From contig NZ_JAIOTY010000006.1 of assembly GCF_019931275.1 (NCBI RefSeq), positions 1-64,000 on the forward strand: a stretch of 64,000 nucleotides of DNA. Reading direction: 5' to 3'. The notes under the pieces were generated by a model. It was not told where the DNA came from. It worked only from the letters and a program-made list of their open reading frames with translations, and made no database searches. Shown here piece by piece: positions 48,214-58,660 of the stretch (its first letter is position 1; the number at the start of each line of letters is the position of its first letter). The DNA comes from Nitratidesulfovibrio sp. SRB-5. GTDB taxonomy: Bacteria; Desulfobacterota; Desulfovibrionia; Desulfovibrionales; Desulfovibrionaceae. Position numbers and translations under genes: made by a program.

Positions 48214-49581
48214 CTATTCCCTTTCCAGGTAGCGGGGGCCGATGGTGGTCACGTTGCCGGCGCCCAGCGTCAGCAGCAGATCGCCGGGTTGCAGCACTTC
48301 CGGCAGCGCCGCCAGCACGGAATCGAAATCCTGGTGGTAGGTCACGTCGGTTTTGGAAACTTGGCGGATGCCCTGGGCAAGGCTTTGCCCGCTCACGCCG
48401 GGGATGGGCTTTTCCGACGCGGGGTAGATTTCCGTCAGCAGCAGCTTGTCCACCCCGTCGAACACCTTGCAGAATTCCCCGAACAGGGCCTGGGTGCGGC
48501 TGAACCGGTGCGGCTGGAACACCACCACCAGCCGCCGGTGCGGAAAGCACTGGCGCGCCGTGGCAAGCGTTGCCGCGATTTCCGCCGGGTGGTGGCCGTA
48601 GTCGTCCACCACCAGCACGCCGTCGCGTTCGCCCTTGCGTTCGAAGCGCCGCCCCACCCCGCCGAACTTGGCAAGGCCCGCCACGATCTTCTCGGGCGCG
48701 ATGTCGCATTCCAGAGCCACGCCGATGGCGGCCAGGGCGTTCAGGATGTTGTGGCGGCCCGGCTGGACCAGGCGCACCTGGCCTATGTCGTCGCCGTTGA
48801 CGATGACGTTGAACAGGCTGGTATCCGCGCAGGCCAGCACTTCTGCCCGGATGGCGTTGCCCTCGCCGAAGCCGTAGGTGACCACCGGGCGCTTCACGCG
48901 GGGCAGCAGACGGCGCACGCCGGGGTCGTCGCCGCAGACCACGTTCATGCCGTAGAACGGCACCTTGTTCATGAAATCCACGAAGGCGTCGTCGATGGCC
49001 TGCTGCGAGGGGTAGTGGTCCATGTGGTCCATGTCCACGTTGGTGACCACGGTGACGATGGGGAACAGGCACAGGAACGAGCCGTCCGATTCGTCCGCCT
49101 CGGCGATCAGGTAGGCGCCGTCACCCAGGCGCGCGTTGGCGCCGTAAGCGTTCAGCCGCCCGCCGATGATTACCGTGGGGTCGGTGCCCGCCTCGTCGAA
49201 GATGGCCGCAGCCAGCGAGGTGGTGGTGGTCTTGCCGTGCGTGCCCGCGATGGCGATGCCCGTGCGCAGGCGCATCAGCTCCGCCAGCATCTCGGCGCGC
49301 GGAATGATGGGGATGCCCCGCTTGCGCGCCGCCGCCACCTCGGGGTTCTCGTCGCCGATGGCCGTGGACTTCACCAGCACCTGCGCGTCGGTCAGATTGC
49401 CCTCGCCGTGGCCGATGTAGATCTCGGCGCCCAGCTTGCGCAGGCGGCGCACCACCGTGCCGTCGGACATGTCCGAACCGCACACCTCGTAGCCCAGGTT
49501 CAGCAGCACCTCGGCAATGCCGCTCATGCCCGAGCCGCCGATGCCGACCATGTGTATTTTTTTTATCTTATTGTTATTCAT
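48214..49581 (-). CDS. murC: UDP-N-acetylmuramate-L-alanine ligase MurC
   Basis: 455-residue ATP-dependent ligase adding L-Ala to UDP-MurNAc. It begins with [29 protein letters not shown], and has the ATP-binding [18 protein letters not shown]. The central region and the C-terminal [18 protein letters not shown] match the Mur ligase family. The AT-rich start region KKIHMVG follows an AT-rich intergenic stretch carrying the 21-bp inverted repeat. Confidence 0.97.
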
Positions 49582-51096: not shown

Positions 51097-52281
51097 TCAG
51101 CGTGCCGTCCGCGAATAGTTCAGCAACAGCCCCACGCAGGTCAGGGTGGTCAGCAGGCTGCTGCCCCCGTAGCTCAGGAAGGGCATGGGCACGCCCTTGG
51201 GAGGCGCCACGCCCATGACCACCGCCATGTTCAGCACGGCGCCCAGCAGCAGCACCAGGGTCACCCCGAAGGCGGTGAACCGGTCGCGCAGGTCTTCCTG
51301 CCGGGCGGCGATGCGAAAGCTGCGCCAGAACAGCATGCCCATCAGCACGAAGACCAGCGACATGCCGATGAAGCCCAGTTCCTCGCCCAGCACGGCGATG
51401 ATGAAGTCGTTGTGCGCTTCCGGCAGGTAGAACAGCTTCTGGCGGCTGGCGCCTATGCCCACGCCGGTGATGCCGCCCGACCCCAGCGCGAACAGCGACT
51501 GCACCAGCTGGTAGCCGGAATCCTGCGCATCGGCGAAGGGATCGAGAAAGGCGGTGAACCGGCGGAAACGGTACGGCGAATGCACCACCAGCATGACGGC
51601 CCCGGCCACCGCCGCAGCGCCGGACACGGCCAGGTAGAAGAACCGCGTGCCGCCCACCAGGCACATGAAGAACAGGATCATGGCCAGCACCGCCGCCCCG
51701 CCGAAGTCGGGCTGGCGCAGCAGCAGCGCGCAGAACACGCCCGTCACCGCGAAGGGCGGTATGACCCCCCGGCTGAAGGTCTTGATGATGTCCTGCTTGG
51801 TGCTCATGAAGTAGGCCAGGTACAGGGCCAGGGCGATCTTGGTGAACTCCATGGGCTGCACGGCCACCGGCCCCACCTGGATCCACCGGCGCGCGCCGTT
51901 GACCTTGTTGCCCAGCGGGGTCAGCACCAGGATGAGCATGATCAGCACCCCGAACAGAATGGGGTATTGCAGGCGGTACAGCAGGTTGCGCGGCATCAGC
52001 GCCGCGGTGAACATGGCCACGCCGCCCACGCAGGCAAAGATCAGCTGGCGCTTGAAAAAGTAGTACTTGTCCGCGTTGAAGCGCTCGGCCACGATGCCGC
52101 TGGCGGACAGCACCATCAGCAGGCCGATGCCCAGCAGGGTCAGCGCGATGGCGAACAGCCACCAGTCCACGCCGTTCTGCGGGCCGTGGTCGCCGTGGGC
52201 AATGCCGCCGAAGCTGCCGCCGTGCCGCAGGTCCGCCAGTGCGGCGGAAGGATGGGCATCCGCTTGCGCGCCGAACCTCAT
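51097..52281 (-). CDS. ftsW: Peptidoglycan glycosyltransferase FtsW
   Basis: 394-residue SEDS-family integral membrane protein polymerising lipid II at the septum. The 40-residue N-terminal extension is polar and His/Gly-rich. Ten predicted helices follow. The conserved QPMEFTKIALALYLA, RQPDFGGAAVL, PEAHNDFIIAVLGEELGF and FLSYGGSSL motifs are visible. Coupled to murD by ATGA. Confidence 0.95.
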   Translation of the reverse strand: MRFGAQADAHPSAALADLRHGGSFGGIAHGDHGPQNGVDWWLFAIALTLLGIGLLMVLSASGIVAERFNADKYYFFKRQLIFACVGGVAMFTAALMPRNLLYRLQYPILFGVLIMLILVLTPLGNKVNGARRWIQVGPVAVQPMEFTKIALALYLAYFMSTKQDIIKTFSRGVIPPFAVTGVFCALLLRQPDFGGAAVLAMILFFMCLVGGTRFFYLAVSGAAAVAGAVMLVVHSPYRFRRFTAFLDPFADAQDSGYQLVQSLFALGSGGITGVGIGASRQKLFYLPEAHNDFIIAVLGEELGFIGMSLVFVLMGMLFWRSFRIAARQEDLRDRFTAFGVTLVLLLGAVLNMAVVMGVAPPKGVPMPFLSYGGSSLLTTLTCVGLLLNYSRTAR

Positions 52282-53615
52282 GGCAGGGCCTCCACCGCGC
52301 GGCGGAAGGCGTGGCCGCGCTCCTTGTAGTTGGCGAAAAGGTCGAAACTGGAGGTGGCCGGGGCCATCACCACGGCGTCACCCGGCCTTGCCAGCGCGGC
52401 GGCCTCGGCTACGGCGGGTTCCAGCGCGGGATGCCAGGACATGGGAAAATCGCCCTGCCCCATCCAGGCCCCCTCGAAATGTTCGCGGCTGGCGCCAAAC
52501 CCCACCACGGCCCGCACCCGCCCGCACAGCAGCGGCAGCAGGGACGCAAGGTCGCCCCCCTTGAACTTGCCGCCCACCATCAGCACCACGGGCCGGTCAA
52601 AGGCTTGCAGGGCCACGCGCAGGGCTTCCACCGTGGTGCACTTGGAATCATTCACCCACAGCACGCCGTTGCGTTCGGCCACTGCCTCCAGCCGGTGCTC
52701 CATGGGGGCGAAGTCCGCCACGGCCTTTTCCGCCGCCTCCGGCGTCACGCCGAACTCGCGGCAGGCCTGCCACGCGGCCTCGATGTTGGCCTGGTTGTGC
52801 CCGCCCAGCAGGCTGGTGCGCGGAAAGCGCCGGGCCGCCGCGTCGAAGAACAGCGTGCGGGGCTTCAGGTCACGCGCGGCAACAAGGTCGCGCACTCCCT
52901 GGCCGAAGATGGCCAGGTCACCTTCCTCCATGCAGCGGAACAGCCGGAACTTGGCGTCGATGTATTCCGCCATGTCGGCGTGGTAATCGAGGTGGTTCTC
53001 GCTGATGTTCAGCAGCATGGCCACGCGCGGGCGAAAGGTGGTGCAGGCCTGCAACTGGAAGCTGGAAATCTCGATGACCAGCACGTCGGCCCTGCCCTGC
53101 CCGTCCGCCCCACCATGCGCTACGGACAACACGTACTCGCTGAGGGGGGTGCCGATGTTGCCGCCGAGGAACACGGAAAGCCCCTGCGCGCGCAGCATGG
53201 CGGCGCACAGCGAAACCGTGGTGGTCTTGCCGCTGGTTCCGGTGACGGCCAGTACCGGCTCGCCGTCCAGTTGCCGCCAGGCAAGCTCCATTTCGGCCAT
53301 GATTTCCGGAGCGTCCGGCCCCTGCGGCAACAGCGGGCGCAGCTTCGCCACGGCCATGCCGGGGCTGGGCACCACGGCCCGGGCGCCTTCGAACTGTGTC
53401 GGCACATGGTCGCCGGTGGCGATTTCCACCCCGGCTTCGGCGGCCCAGCGCACGAAGTCGGCGGGCACCCCGTCGGCGTTGCGTTCCAGCAGGCGCACGC
53501 GCGCCCCCATGCGGTGCAGCAGCCGCGCGGCAGCCATGCCGGAGCGGCCCGCGCCCACGACCACCACAAGGTCGCCCTTGCCGATGGTTTGCGCCGTGTG
53601 CTTGTCGCAGGTCAT
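52278..53615 (-). CDS. murD: UDP-N-acetylmuramoylalanine-D-glutamate ligase MurD
   Basis: 445-residue Mur ligase adding D-Glu. The NAD-fold-like opening VVVVGAGRSGMAAARLLHRMG, the P-loop VTGTSGKTTTVSLCAAML, and NISENHLDYH mark the family; NDSKCTT precedes the C-terminal domain. The start has AAGGA nine bases upstream. The gap to mraY (167 bases) holds a hairpin and no gene. Confidence 0.96.
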   Translation of the reverse strand: MTCDKHTAQTIGKGDLVVVVGAGRSGMAAARLLHRMGARVRLLERNADGVPADFVRWAAEAGVEIATGDHVPTQFEGARAVVPSPGMAVAKLRPLLPQGPDAPEIMAEMELAWRQLDGEPVLAVTGTSGKTTTVSLCAAMLRAQGLSVFLGGNIGTPLSEYVLSVAHGGADGQGRADVLVIEISSFQLQACTTFRPRVAMLLNISENHLDYHADMAEYIDAKFRLFRCMEEGDLAIFGQGVRDLVAARDLKPRTLFFDAAARRFPRTSLLGGHNQANIEAAWQACREFGVTPEAAEKAVADFAPMEHRLEAVAERNGVLWVNDSKCTTVEALRVALQAFDRPVVLMVGGKFKGGDLASLLPLLCGRVRAVVGFGASREHFEGAWMGQGDFPMSWHPALEPAVAEAAALARPGDAVVMAPATSSFDLFANYKERGHAFRRAVEALP

Positions 53616-53782: not shown

Positions 53783-54859
53783 CTAGCGCAACTTCAGGAC
53801 AGACAGCGCCATCAGGCCAAGCAGCGCCGACATGATCCAGAACCTGATGATGATCTTCGACTCGGGAATGCCCTGCAATTCGAAGTGGTGATGCAGCGGG
53901 GCCATGCGAAAGATGCGCTTGCCCCCCGTGAACTTGAAGTAGCCCACCTGCAGGATCACCGACAGGGTTTCCACCACGAACAGCCCGCCCACGACGAGCA
54001 GCAACAGTTCCTGCTTGCACAGCACGGCCAGGAAGCCCAGCGCGCCACCAAGGGCCAGCGAGCCCACGTCGCCCATGAACACCTGGGCCGGGTAGGCGTT
54101 GAACCACAGAAAGCCCAGGCTTGCGCCCACCAGCGCCCCGCAGAACACGGTGACCTCGCCCACGCCGGGCACGTTGGGCACTTGCAGGTAGTTGGCCATC
54201 TGCACGTTGCCCGCCACGTAGATGAACACGGCAAAGACCATGCCCGCGATGATGGTGGGGCCGATGGCCAGGCCGTCCAGCCCGTCGGTAAGGTTCACCC
54301 CGTTGGAAGAACCCACCATCACCGTCACGGCGAAGGGGATGTACAGCCAGCCGAGATCGGGCGCGAGGCCCTTGAAGAACGGAAAGGCCAGCCGGGTGGA
54401 GTACACCGGCTCGCTGACCACCATGTACATGGCCACGGCCGCCACAATCACCTGCCCAAGAAACTTGGCGCGGGCGGACAGCCCCTTGTTGTTGCGGCGG
54501 CGGATCTTGATGTAGTCGTCCAGAAAGCCCACCAGGCCGAAGCCCAGAAAGATGAGCATGGTCAGCCAGACGTACTTGTTGGTCAGGTCTGCCCACAGCA
54601 GCACGCTGCACGTCAGGCAGAAGGCGATGAGCAGGCCGCCCATGGTGGGGGTGCCCGCCTTCTGCATGTGGCAGGTGACGTCCTCGTGGATGTGCTGGCC
54701 GCACTTGATGCGTTGCAGCCACGCGATGAAGCGCGGCCCCATGAGGATGGACAGCAGCAGCGCCGTCAGCAACGCCCACACCGACCGGAAGGTGATGTAG
54801 CGGAAGACGTTGAGGACCGTGAATTCGGAACTGAGGGGATACAGCAGGTTATACAGCAT
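53783..54859 (-). CDS. mraY: Phospho-MurNAc-pentapeptide translocase MraY
   Basis: 358-residue ten-helix membrane enzyme that makes lipid I from UDP-MurNAc-pentapeptide. Markers: [12 protein letters not shown], the catalytic [22 protein letters not shown] (Asp pair), [29 protein letters not shown] and [10 protein letters not shown]. The initiation codon is overlapped by the stop of the 66-codon ORF upstream, which now occupies the place of murF. Confidence 0.97.
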
Positions 54860-55049
54860 GGCGCCCCCCGGTGGCGGACCCGTTCAGGTGCCCTTCCGGC
54901 TGTACGGCCTTGCGCGCGCCCGACGAAACGTGGCAGCGCGCGCCCAGGCAGGCGCGACGGCAGAGCCCGGTGCGGGCGGAAAGGCCGGATACGCCTGCCA
55001 CATGGGACACGGCGCGGCCCCGCGCTGCTTGGCGCGTGGCTGTGAACAT
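54849..55049 (-). CDS. 66-residue ORF in the place of murF; possible deletion scar
   Basis: A 66-codon ORF whose ATG overlaps the murE stop (TGATG) and whose TAA overlaps the mraY start by 11 bases. The product is Arg/Ala/Gly-rich (opening [14 protein letters not shown], ending GGRHAV) with no MurF motif: no ATP P-loop GTxGKTTT. Double overlap suggests it is translated and that it once was, or replaces, a longer gene in the murE-murF-mraY order; an in-frame internal deletion of murF is the simplest story. Codon use is less typical than that of the neighbours. Confidence 0.4.
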
Positions 55050-56533
55050 CAGTTGCACCCCAGTATCTCCCGAATGACCTGTTGGTCGCTGTACGGCACC
55101 TTGCGGTCGCCGATCTGCTGGTAACTTTCGTGCCCCTTGCCCGCCACCAGCAACACGTCGCCGGGTTGCAGCAGCGCAAGGGCCTTGCCGATGGCCCTGG
55201 CCCTGTCGGCGTCGCTGACCACCTCGCGCGCCCCGGCAAGGCCGGGCAGCACGTCGGCCATGATGGCCTCCGGGTCCTCGTGGCGGGGGTTGTCGGACGT
55301 GAGCACGGCCACGTCGGCATGGCGCGCCACCGCCTGCCCCATCAGCGGGCGCTTGGTGCGGTCGCGGTTGCCGCCGCAGCCGAACACTGTGACGATGCGC
55401 GAAAAGCCCACCGCGCGCAGCGCGCGCAGCACGTTTTCCAGCGCGTCGGGGGTATGGGCGTAATCGACGAAAATGTCCAGCCCCCGCGGGTTCACGATGC
55501 GCTCCAGCCGCCCCGGCACGCCGGTGAAGTCGGCCAGGCTGGCGAAATCCTGCGGCGCAAGGCCCATACCCAAGCATACCGCCTGCACGGCCAGCAGGTT
55601 GGAGGCGTTGTGCGCGCCCACGAGGTGCGAGGAAAGCTCCCACTGCCGCCCTTCACAAGTCATGCGCAGCGTGAGGCCCGAGGTGGCGTTGCGCACCATC
55701 TCGCCGTGCAGGAACCGACGGCCCGAAACGGCATTGCCCGCATCCAGCCCGAAGCCGATGGCGTGCTCCACCTCGCCCAGCAGGCGGCGGCCCCAGGCGT
55801 CGTCGGCATTGACGGCGCAGGCCTTGTCCGCGTCGGGCAGTTCGGTGAACAGGCGGGCCTTGGCGGCATAGTAGTGTTCCATGTCGCCGTGGTAGTCCAG
55901 GTGGTCCTGCGTCAGGTTGGTCAGGATGGCCCCGGCAAAGCGGATGCCCGCCACCCGGCGCTGGTCCAGCGCGTGCGACGAGACCTCCATCAGCGCCACG
56001 TCCACCCCGGCGTCGCGCATGCGGCCCAGCATGGCGTGGGTTTCGATGCAGTCGGGCGTGGTCAGCGGCGCGTCCATGGCAAAGCCCGGCCAGCGGTAGC
56101 TGACGGTGCCCAGCACCCCGGCCCGGCGGCCAAGGGCGGAAAACACGTGCTCCAGCAGGTAAGTGATGGTGGTCTTTCCGTTGGTGCCGGTAACGGCCAC
56201 CACCGGAAAGGGCAGCGCATCCGTGCCGTAGCGGGCCTGGCCCAGCAGGCCGATGGCCGCGCGCGGGTCGTCGTGGGCGGCCACCACCGCGCCCTCGGGC
56301 GCGCCGACAAGGGCTGCTTCCGCCCTGTCGGGCAGGCAGACCACCGCCCCGGCCCCGGCGGCCCATGCCTTCGCAATGAAGTCCGCACCGTCCACGCCCG
56401 CGCCGCCGTTGGCGGCAACGCCGGGCACGGCCACGAACACGTCGTCCCGGCCCACCTTGCGCGAGTCGGTGCGGATTTCCGGCGTGTTTTCACGAACACG
56501 GGCCAGAAGGCCATCAAAAGATATACGGGTCAT
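55049..56533 (-). CDS. murE: UDP-N-acetylmuramyl-tripeptide synthetase MurE
   Basis: 494-residue Mur ligase adding the third residue of the stem peptide (normally meso-diaminopimelate in Gram-negatives). VTGTNGKTTITYLLEHVF is the ATP loop; EVSSHALDQRRV and NLTQDHLDYHGDMEHYYAAKARLF are conserved; the C-terminal region contains SDNPRHEDPEAIM, the DNPR motif of the diaminopimelate-adding enzyme. Length is normal. The stop overlaps the next ORF by TGATG. Confidence 0.96.
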   Translation of the reverse strand: MTRISFDGLLARVRENTPEIRTDSRKVGRDDVFVAVPGVAANGGAGVDGADFIAKAWAAGAGAVVCLPDRAEAALVGAPEGAVVAAHDDPRAAIGLLGQARYGTDALPFPVVAVTGTNGKTTITYLLEHVFSALGRRAGVLGTVSYRWPGFAMDAPLTTPDCIETHAMLGRMRDAGVDVALMEVSSHALDQRRVAGIRFAGAILTNLTQDHLDYHGDMEHYYAAKARLFTELPDADKACAVNADDAWGRRLLGEVEHAIGFGLDAGNAVSGRRFLHGEMVRNATSGLTLRMTCEGRQWELSSHLVGAHNASNLLAVQAVCLGMGLAPQDFASLADFTGVPGRLERIVNPRGLDIFVDYAHTPDALENVLRALRAVGFSRIVTVFGCGGNRDRTKRPLMGQAVARHADVAVLTSDNPRHEDPEAIMADVLPGLAGAREVVSDADRARAIGKALALLQPGDVLLVAGKGHESYQQIGDRKVPYSDQQVIREILGCN

Positions 56534-56545
56534 CTGCCGATGCTC

Positions 56546-58660
56546 CTAGGAATTCTCGGAAAGCCACAGGACGCACTGCCCCGTGGGCTGGCCCTTGGGC
56601 CATTCGGTGCCCGGTTCCGGGGTCTGGCGGATCACGGTCTGCCCCGCGCCCTTGAGCACGGGCACCATGCCTTGCCGGGCAAACACCTCCACGGCGCGGC
56701 GCACCGACTTGCCCACCACGTTGGGCACCCCGTCGGGGGCCTCGCGCACGGCCTCGGCCACCTCGCGGCGCACTTCCACCGGCCCGGTCTTGCCTAGGGG
56801 CGTGGCGTAGGCCGGGGCCTCCGGGTCGGGCGCATCGGGCAGCAGGCCGTGGTAGGCCATGGTGCGCATGGCCACGTGCTTGAACACGGGCGCAGCGACC
56901 ACGCCGCCGTACGAATTTTTCTGGGGTTCGTCCACCATGACCAAAATCAGGTACTTGGGCTTGTCGATGGGCGCAAAACCCACGAAGGAAGCCAGCCGTT
57001 CGTGACCGTAACGTCCCGTTTCGTCAGCCTTTTGCGCGGTGCCGGTCTTGCCGCCCACCATGATGCCGGGGATACGCGCGCGGGTGCCGGTGCCGTCTTC
57101 CTCCACCACTTCGCGCAGCATGGAGATGACCTGCTTCACCGTCTTGTCGTTGTACACCTTCTGGCTGGCCGAGTTGGCCGGGGCTTCGTCGTCCACCACC
57201 AGACGCAGCGGCTTGCGTTCGCCGCCGTTGGCCAGCGTCAGGTAGGCCTGGGCCATCTGTACGCCGGTGGCGGCAATGGCCTGGCCGAACGAGGTGGTGA
57301 TCAGGTCCGGCTCGGACCAGTGGCGCGGATCGCGCAGGATGCCCTTGCTCTCGGTGATGGGCAGGCCGGTGCGGTCGCCAAAGCCCAGCTGGTTCAGGTA
57401 TTCCCAATACCGCTTGGACCCGAGTTCCAGGCCTATCTTGGCCATGCCGATGTTGCTGGAGTAACGCAACACCTTGTTCACCGGCAGCACGTCATAGCTG
57501 TGGGTGTCGCGGATGGTGATGTAGCGGGTCTTCCAGCGGCCCTTTTCGCAGTTGAACGTGGTGTCGCCCTTGACCACGCCCTCTTGCAGGGCGGCGGCCA
57601 CCAGAAACGGCTTGAGCGTGGAGCCGGGTTCCAGCGCGTCGGCGGCCAGACGGTTGCGCCAACGGTCGGCCTTGTAGTCGCGGTAGGCGTTGGGGTTGAA
57701 GAACGGGTACTGCGCCCAGGCCAGGATGTCGCCCGAATCCACGTCCACCACAAGGCAACCGCCCCACGAGGCGTCGAACTGGTCCACCGAGCGGGCCAGG
57801 GCTTCTTCGGCAAAGAACTGCACCTGGGTGTCGAGGGTCAGGTGCACGTCGCGGCCACGCAGGGCCGCGCGGCCCGCGCCGCCGTCCATGTCCAGGCGGC
57901 GCCCGGCGGCGTCGCGCTGCACCACGTTGCGGGCGGAATCGCCGCTCAGCACCTCGTCGAAGGTCAGTTCCAGCCCCTCAAGGCCCTTGCTCTCCATGCC
58001 CACGAAGCCGAGCAGCTGTCCGGCCATCTGCTTGAAAGGATAGATGCGCTCGTACTCGCTGCTCAGGTACACGCCGGGCAGCCCGGCCTTGCGCACGTTT
58101 TCGGCGGCCAGGTCGTCCACCTTGCGGGCCACCCACGCAAAGCCGCGCTTGGAGGCAACGGCCTCGCGCACCTGCTTGACCGGGGCTTCCAGCGCCGCGG
58201 ACAGGGCGTTGACGGTGGCGTCAAGGTCGCGCACCTCGCCGGGACGGACGTAGACGGAGCGCACCTCCACGCTGCGAGCCAGTATCTGCCCGTTGCGGTC
58301 GAGAATGGCGCCGCGCCTGCCGGACACGGTCTCCGCCGCCATGTGCTGGCGACGGGCAAGGGCTGCCAGCCGATCACCGTCGTAGACCTGCACGTACCAG
58401 GCGCGCGACCACAGCAGCAGCCACAGCAGCGCGAACACGCAGCCCACGCCGTACAGGCGCACCTTGCTCCAGTCCGCCCCGCCGAAGCGGGCAAAGGGAT
58501 TGAAGCGCATGCCGCCGCCGAACGATGCTCCGGGGGCCTTCTTGTTGCGCAGGGCGCGCGCGGCACGAGGGGCGCGCGCGTCGAAAGAGGGACGCGCATC
58601 GCGCGCAGTGCGCGGCGCGGGCCTGCCGAGTATGCGTGACTTCCTGTCGGCTCGCAGCAT
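56546..58660 (-). CDS. ftsI: Septal peptidoglycan transpeptidase FtsI (PBP3) with a PASTA domain
   Basis: 704-residue bitopic penicillin-binding protein. A basic, probably disordered ~65-residue cytoplasmic N-terminus precedes the membrane helix. The pedestal domain follows, then the transpeptidase domain with SxxK at S347-T-L-K350, SSN (in RYSSNIGMAKIG) and KTGT (in GGKTGTAQKADETG). The C-terminus has one PASTA domain (GVPNVVGKSVRRAVEVFARQG), not found in E. coli FtsI. Starts at 58660 behind GGAAC; ends 12 bases before murE. Confidence 0.95.
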   Translation of the reverse strand: MLRADRKSRILGRPAPRTARDARPSFDARAPRAARALRNKKAPGASFGGGMRFNPFARFGGADWSKVRLYGVGCVFALLWLLLWSRAWYVQVYDGDRLAALARRQHMAAETVSGRRGAILDRNGQILARSVEVRSVYVRPGEVRDLDATVNALSAALEAPVKQVREAVASKRGFAWVARKVDDLAAENVRKAGLPGVYLSSEYERIYPFKQMAGQLLGFVGMESKGLEGLELTFDEVLSGDSARNVVQRDAAGRRLDMDGGAGRAALRGRDVHLTLDTQVQFFAEEALARSVDQFDASWGGCLVVDVDSGDILAWAQYPFFNPNAYRDYKADRWRNRLAADALEPGSTLKPFLVAAALQEGVVKGDTTFNCEKGRWKTRYITIRDTHSYDVLPVNKVLRYSSNIGMAKIGLELGSKRYWEYLNQLGFGDRTGLPITESKGILRDPRHWSEPDLITTSFGQAIAATGVQMAQAYLTLANGGERKPLRLVVDDEAPANSASQKVYNDKTVKQVISMLREVVEEDGTGTRARIPGIMVGGKTGTAQKADETGRYGHERLASFVGFAPIDKPKYLILVMVDEPQKNSYGGVVAAPVFKHVAMRTMAYHGLLPDAPDPEAPAYATPLGKTGPVEVRREVAEAVREAPDGVPNVVGKSVRRAVEVFARQGMVPVLKGAGQTVIRQTPEPGTEWPKGQPTGQCVLWLSENS

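Follow-up and report, generated by a model that had tools for sequence, protein, structure and literature searches.

Probable displacement of murF by a foreign module with a MurF analogue in Nitratidesulfovibrio

The murF gene is normally essential, yet it is missing from its usual place between murE and mraY in the 64,000-nucleotide stretch of Nitratidesulfovibrio sp. SRB-5 DNA analysed here (the window), where an open reading frame (ORF) of 66 codons is found instead. We consider it highly probable that murF, together with the resident ddl, was displaced by a foreign module carrying a MurF analogue, which we call MurF2, and the small ORF (mini-ORF) is probably the scar of this event. The module is composed of genes for a long Ddl, an alpha/beta hydrolase and MurF2, and is located on another contig (C2) of the same assembly (Table 1).

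Table 1. Coordinates of the features discussed, in the window unless another contig or locus is named
Feature	Position	Strand	Remark
murC	48214-49581	-	named by eye; weak TIGR01143 match
murD	52278-53615	-	named by eye; distant Mur ligase with weak TIGR01143 matches
mraY	53783-54859	-	named by eye; tblastn 68-79% identity in ten relatives' loci
mini-ORF at the murF site, 66 codons	54849-55049	-	overlaps murE and mraY; probable deletion scar, possible translational bridge
murE	55049-56533	-	TIGR01085 466.9 bits, cut-off 257.3
ftsI-like penicillin-binding protein	56546-58660	-	named by eye
module: long Ddl, alpha/beta hydrolase, MurF2	C2, about 844366-848653	-	window's assembly
GGDEF-like gene, 3' of murF2	L095:3015-4214, contig C2	same as murF2	named by eye

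The dcw cluster of the window lies on the minus strand, and all its gene names except murE were assigned by eye. Between murE and mraY there is a gap of 189 nt without murF; the ATG of the mini-ORF overlaps the TGA of murE as TGATG, and its TAA falls at position +8 of mraY. Both the missing gene and the ORF overlapping the murE stop and the mraY start, as given in the preliminary description, are thus confirmed in the window sequence. At E 0.001, neither NCBIfam nor Pfam has a model that matches the mini-ORF.

The same junction was then compared in a genus sample of eight genomes, including that of the window, and was readable in five of them (the window's and four others) but not in G001, G002 and G004. 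At all five junctions, one of which is in the single-contig genome G007, murF is absent, and the gaps measure 189, 132, 213, 156 and 108 nt, each a multiple of three. The suspicion that murF is really present and was collapsed by a sequencing or assembly artefact, which has nothing in its favour beyond the usual essentiality of the gene, can therefore be dismissed as having virtually no probability, since five of five genomes agree while their gaps differ in both length and sequence and hence do not reflect one shared misassembly. In the rest of the family, by contrast with the genus, the junctions that we fetched with both murE and mraY present (genome G088, described below, set apart) all contain a long ORF in a gap of 1313-1591 nt, which is the size of murF (14/14). 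MurF above the curated TIGR01143 cut-off was found in 117 of the 149 family genomes surveyed, and in none of the eight genomes of the genus (by best E-value).

A check of the whole genome for another Mur ligase led to MurF2, a protein of 544 residues. Its middle and C-terminal Mur ligase domains (PF08245 and PF02875) score above the gathering thresholds, but with about 186 bits against a TIGR01143 cut-off of 288.6 it remains under the curated level for MurF, and no protein above that level was found in the assembly. Similar scores (186-225 bits) were obtained in 16 of 17 MurF2 genomes; in G165, the match is in two parts of 98.6 and 84.3 bits. The alignment begins within model positions 62-71 in all of the 17 except G160, where it begins at position 32. 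Indeed, the N-terminal UDP-MurNAc-binding domain of MurF was not found in MurF2, and the first ~178 residues, which are mostly helical in the structural model, replace the uridine-binding domain 1. None of five such N-terminal regions tried gave anything above the Pfam gathering scores. The helical region contains the sequence HIFQQEEY, which is invariant in 17/17 MurF2 proteins, and was modelled alone with a pLDDT of 94.7; judging from their hydrophobic make-up, the helices probably span the membrane. When this region alone was compared with solved structures, the best Foldseek E-value was 1.4 and the best Z was 4.8 (rmsd 6.5 over 83 residues). We claim no relative for it, and a missing structural match does not show a new fold.

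In the remainder of the protein, the catalytic motifs of the MurF type are retained in all 17 MurF2 proteins. KGS, which we take to be a defining C-terminal motif of MurF, is present in 8/8 classical MurFs, whereas its place is occupied by ENDLPD in 17/17 MurF2 proteins and in 0/8 classical ones; a KGS string occurs somewhere in two of the 17. MurF structures were the best structure matches of MurF2 when searched by sequence, and the same holds for a model of a congener's MurF2 (Desulfovibrio sp. A2; mean pLDDT 88.6), the best structural matches of which are the MurF structures 1gg4, 4cvm and 3zl8: 4cvm was best in Foldseek (E 1.8e-20) and 3zl8 in VIA-align (Z 35.8, rmsd 4.1 over 375 residues). 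MurF2 hence resembles classical MurF (TIGR01143) in the central ATPase and C-terminal domains, the P-loop and a motif of the D-D-x-Y-N-x-N-P type, and differs from it in the helical replacement of domain 1, the exchange of KGS for ENDLPD, its score under the cut-off and its position in a separate clade. This last point comes from a tree of 14 of the 18 MurF2 sequences and eight classical MurFs with murE added, all rows being trimmed to begin 25 residues ahead of GKT (the L156 row was trimmed at a GKT later than its true P-loop); MurF2 and classical MurF fall into separate groups with a support of 100/98. Because the sole candidate in the assembly belongs to a separate clade, the idea that the same murF has merely moved elsewhere in the genome is not supported. 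Three tested features of MurF were not found in MurF2, so that we do not file it in the MurF family. We infer that MurF2 works like MurF, whereas its substrate may differ from that of MurF, given the score under the cut-off and the absence of domain 1 and of KGS.

The neighbours of murF2 seen by eye are the genes for Ddl and the hydrolase and a GGDEF-like gene. The hydrolase gene overlaps the start of murF2, and the Ddl-like gene adjoins. In the hydrolase, GHSFG, an aspartate and a histidine are kept in 17/17 loci and presumably form a triad. The long Ddl keeps a KYL stretch in the presumed omega loop and has NEVNP-PGS-AFFLWE near the presumed C-terminal substrate region, in which it is unlike classical Ddls.

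This long Ddl is the sole Ddl found in the window genome at the thresholds used and the only Ddl match in 9/9 MurF2 genomes of the family, in which Ddl above the cut-off was found in 82 of 149 genomes. Among the 17 genomes reached via MurF2 loci, a Ddl match was obtained in 16 and exceeded the cut-off in none of the 17; a second Ddl is present in G155 (shorter) and in G159 (weak). We also compared 19 MurF2-positive with 19 MurF2-negative alphaproteobacteria, the latter hand-picked from the start of the list, and Ddl above the cut-off was found in 1/19 of the positive (G402) versus 18/19 of the negative genomes. In 17 of the 19 positive genomes (G215 and G234 being the exceptions), Ddl lies in an open frame of at least 403 residues, and in 12 of the 19 it is on the same contig as MurF2 and only a few kb away. 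G402 has a Ddl above the cut-off (285 bits) in addition to a long-frame Ddl, and is a possible intermediate on the Ddl side. In the Labrys genomes G150, G152 and G153, the sole Ddl match is in a frame of 425-471 residues that is not next to the genes for the hydrolase and MurF2, so that the long Ddl accompanies MurF2 even without linkage. In G157 (L157) and G160 (L159), the module is within about 2 kb of a dcw-type Mur-ligase gene, as though it had inserted into or next to the cell-wall cluster.

In the family, MurF2 scores above 400 bits in 8/149 genomes, namely seven of the genus and G088, and the eighth genus genome (G001) has two MurF2 fragments with 96-98% identity; the best match among all other family genomes is 116 bits. 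MurF above the cut-off is found in none of these nine MurF2 genomes, versus the 117/149 overall. A scan of named genomes with two exact peptide patterns, by which divergent relatives would be missed, gave 21 loci: 13 alphaproteobacterial ones (including Azospirillum halopraeferens, three Labrys and MAGs), six Desulfovibrio/Nitratidesulfovibrio records, the G088 contig and one Opitutales MAG. Eleven of the 13 were assigned to alphaproteobacteria by title, and L114 and L119 via genomes that group in the class of Labrys. Two of the 17 genomes behind the scan loci also have MurF above the cut-off, and G161 has a match of 259 bits at a contig end. We had expected an origin of the module in Campylobacterota, but the two-pattern scan gave the above loci instead; we name no donor, because divergent relatives would escape an exact-pattern scan. 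Among plasmid records, none of 39 matches (15 of them listed) covers 80% of MurF2.

The exclusion of classical MurF was also seen in a larger set of 385 alphaproteobacteria, in which MurF was scored after a loose first look with at most four candidates per genome. The membrane region of MurF2 was found in 22 of them, including the centre genome G152 and the previously known G156 and G160. A classical-scoring MurF is absent in 19/22 of these versus 37/363 of the others (Fisher p = 7e-15, kinship ignored), and in 16/19 when the three genomes known beforehand are left out (Fisher p 1.5e-12). The best MurF E-values in the 19 genomes are only 1e-59 to 1e-71, and these weak matches would be MurF2 itself, to judge by the scores among the matches listed. 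The remaining three of the 22 (G280, G363 and G547) have the membrane region together with a classical-scoring MurF; 326 of the 363 others are above the cut-off, and G280, G363 and G547 were taken as above it, which is shown for G280 among the matches listed. As a side observation, no MurF match at E 1e-30 was obtained in 18 of the 385 genomes, and several others without MurF2, such as G242, G237 and G471, reach no better than 1e-52 to 1e-60; further divergent MurF types may be present in some of all these genomes, and others are small or incomplete.

Among the explanations offered in the preliminary description, the supply of the D-Ala-D-Ala ligation by a different enzyme fits these results best and is very probably correct, given the presence of MurF2, its motifs and its exclusion with classical MurF. 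MurF2 might instead be a peptide ligase with some other job, peptidoglycan being made without the MurF step; the loss of domain 1 and KGS and the deviating C-terminal substrate region of the adjoining Ddl are compatible with this, but the strong exclusion between MurF2 and classical MurF, the catalytic motifs of the MurF type and the pairing with Ddl make it improbable.

The three genes are also found together in Campylobacter jejuni, where Cj0798c (ddl), Cj0796c (alpha/beta hydrolase) and Cj0795c (murF) form one locus according to the part of the account available to us (PMC5530802), and the trio is therefore not new as an arrangement. The likeness is one of gene descriptions (Ddl, a putative alpha/beta hydrolase and a ligase annotated as MurF), and that part of the account, unlike what we see in the window genus, makes no mention of a displacement or a scar. 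Deletion of Cj0796c is described there as attempted without success, and its authors suggest possible essentiality, citing an essential-gene study; in the main text of the latter, as far as available, a gene list includes Cj0795c and Cj0798c, and Cj0796c does not appear (PMC3229698). In the open-access literature, no title on displacement of MurF or on a MurF without domain 1 was among the matches listed.

Another Mur-ligase homologue, MurT (9sq9), was among the structural matches of the MurF2 model. In the available parts of two reports, MurT/GatD acts on lipid I and II and not on soluble UDP precursors, and the substrate of MurT is without the uridine bound by the N-terminal domain of Mur ligases (PMC3266927, PMC6085368). 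MurT amidates D-Glu with GatD, while MurF2 has motifs of the MurF type, a pairing with Ddl and a membrane-like region of multiple helices instead. Because of this precedent, the lost uridine-binding domain, the helical membrane-like region with HIFQQEEY and the replacement of Ddl along with MurF, we put forward as a tentative and rather unlikely idea that MurF2 is a membrane enzyme which would act after MraY and attach the dipeptide product of the long Ddl to lipid I or lipid II bearing only a tripeptide; the pathway would then be re-ordered, and the dipeptide perhaps extend beyond D-Ala-D-Ala.

Several stages of the loss of murF appear to be preserved among the MurF2 genomes. G155 and G163 have, in addition to MurF2, a MurF above the cut-off between murE and mraY, in which one motif pattern was unmatched (EMG is unmatched in 4/8 classical MurFs). 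The G160 junction retains an ORF of 433 codons in frame with murF. It can still be aligned to the MurF of G163 (27% identity, E 1e-29), but its score is only 38.5 bits, and the P-loop, EMG, YN, ELG and KGS patterns are all unmatched. In Azospirillum, the three Labrys, G154 and G156, murF is absent and the gap measures 41-211 nt.

Another of these junctions is that of G088, a family member outside the window genus, where a gap of 124 nt contains an ORF of 43 codons. Each of the seven other surveyed genomes of its genus has a murF ORF of 466-478 codons, overlapping the murE stop at its start and ending at mraY +1. Over its first and over its last 30 nt, the G088 gap agrees with the murF of its best-matching genus mate in 22 of 30 positions (P = 0.0002 each), although the identity at the 3' end may partly reflect a shared ribosome-binding site. 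The gap also keeps the residue modulo three of the seven genus mates, and borders and frame are both kept in this single case (1/1). On these alignments, it is well supported that the murF of G088 was lost by an internal deletion leaving both borders, separately from the loss in the window genus. The module genes of G088 have 43-49% G+C, as compared with 67.5% for the dcw region on that contig and 56% in the next kilobase, and this low G+C points to a recent transfer. In the window genome, the G+C of the module (0.70) resembles that of its surroundings, and a transfer is hence not visible there. The hydrolase tree joins the genus and G088 at 94/88 only, and the trees do not resolve whether the two gained the module separately or once.

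A deletion of the same kind was proposed for the window, where an in-frame internal loss of murF was thought to have left the two original borders, and the outcome is mixed. Borders and frame fit in the window genus, being kept at 5/5 junctions even though G003 has no ATG, and residual murF ends are found in G088; no murF sequence is left in the window genus, however. The suggested alignment of the mini-ORF ends to the murF of relatives accordingly succeeds at each end of the G088 gap, whereas in the window genus residual murF sequence is not detectable in the mini-ORF (single-window P 0.10 to 0.35). Taken together with G088, we regard the mini-ORF of the window as probably a murF deletion scar.

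The main alternative to this reading is that the gap is a neutral spacer, the frame and borders of which were kept by chance. An open frame alone is unsurprising in such G+C-rich DNA, since mononucleotide shuffles of the gap keep the frame open in 45-62% of cases, and the lack of remaining murF sequence in the genus would also suit a spacer. Five gap lengths that are all multiples of three, on the other hand, imply no fewer than four changes in length without loss of the frame (1/81 by chance). In Labrys, the three gaps (211, 124 and 85 nt) similarly share one residue modulo three, adding two further changes, each with a chance of 1/3, to those of the genus and to the deletion in G088. Moreover, a bridging ORF, which starts near the murE stop and terminates no more than 20 nt from the mraY start, was found at 11 of 12 junctions lacking murF, the exception being G156, which counts on the side of a spacer. 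Counted by lineage, five of six murF-less lineages have such an ORF (simple shuffling gives P 0.001 when the most favourable row represents each lineage and 0.004 with the least favourable one). Chance conservation thus appears unlikely, while retaining a substantial share of the probability.

It is much less probable that murF gave way to a true gene for a small protein, although the idea that the ORF is conserved as such in relatives is borne out insofar as the same frame is open in 5/5 genomes of the genus, with gap lengths in multiples of three, and similar bridging ORFs recur at murF-less junctions. What fails is conservation at the protein level: the amino-acid sequence is not conserved, there is no family match, and G+C at codon position 2 is 0.68-0.75 in the mini-ORF versus 0.48-0.49 in murE, which is not coding-like. 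About half of the shuffles leave the frame open as well, and in G003 only an upstream GTG could start the ORF. The kept frame rather suggests that the mini-ORF is a translation bridge from murE to mraY.

For the displacement of murF, we propose the following course. An ancestor of the genus would have acquired the long Ddl, the alpha/beta hydrolase and the membrane-type MurF2 by transfer. With MurF2 able to add the terminal dipeptide, and so presumably to carry out the MurF reaction, the resident murF and ddl could then be lost. The loss of murF would have occurred by an internal deletion, after which the overlap with murE at the start and that with mraY at the stop remained; the doubly overlapping mini-ORF would owe its form to this deletion. 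Its survival may be due to ribosomes that run on from murE through it and so promote the translation of mraY.

The steps catalysed by MurF and Ddl count as nearly universal among bacteria with peptidoglycan, and both enzymes are studied as targets of antibiotics. In several lineages, the two appear to have given way jointly to a pair in which the ligase has no domain for binding the nucleotide substrate. Annotation by MurF cut-offs will report such genomes as being without an essential gene. The stages caught here, with both enzymes, a dead relic, a scar or an empty gap, open the displacement of an essential gene to direct study. If it is true that MurF2 uses lipid-linked precursors, the textbook order of peptidoglycan synthesis would not be universal.
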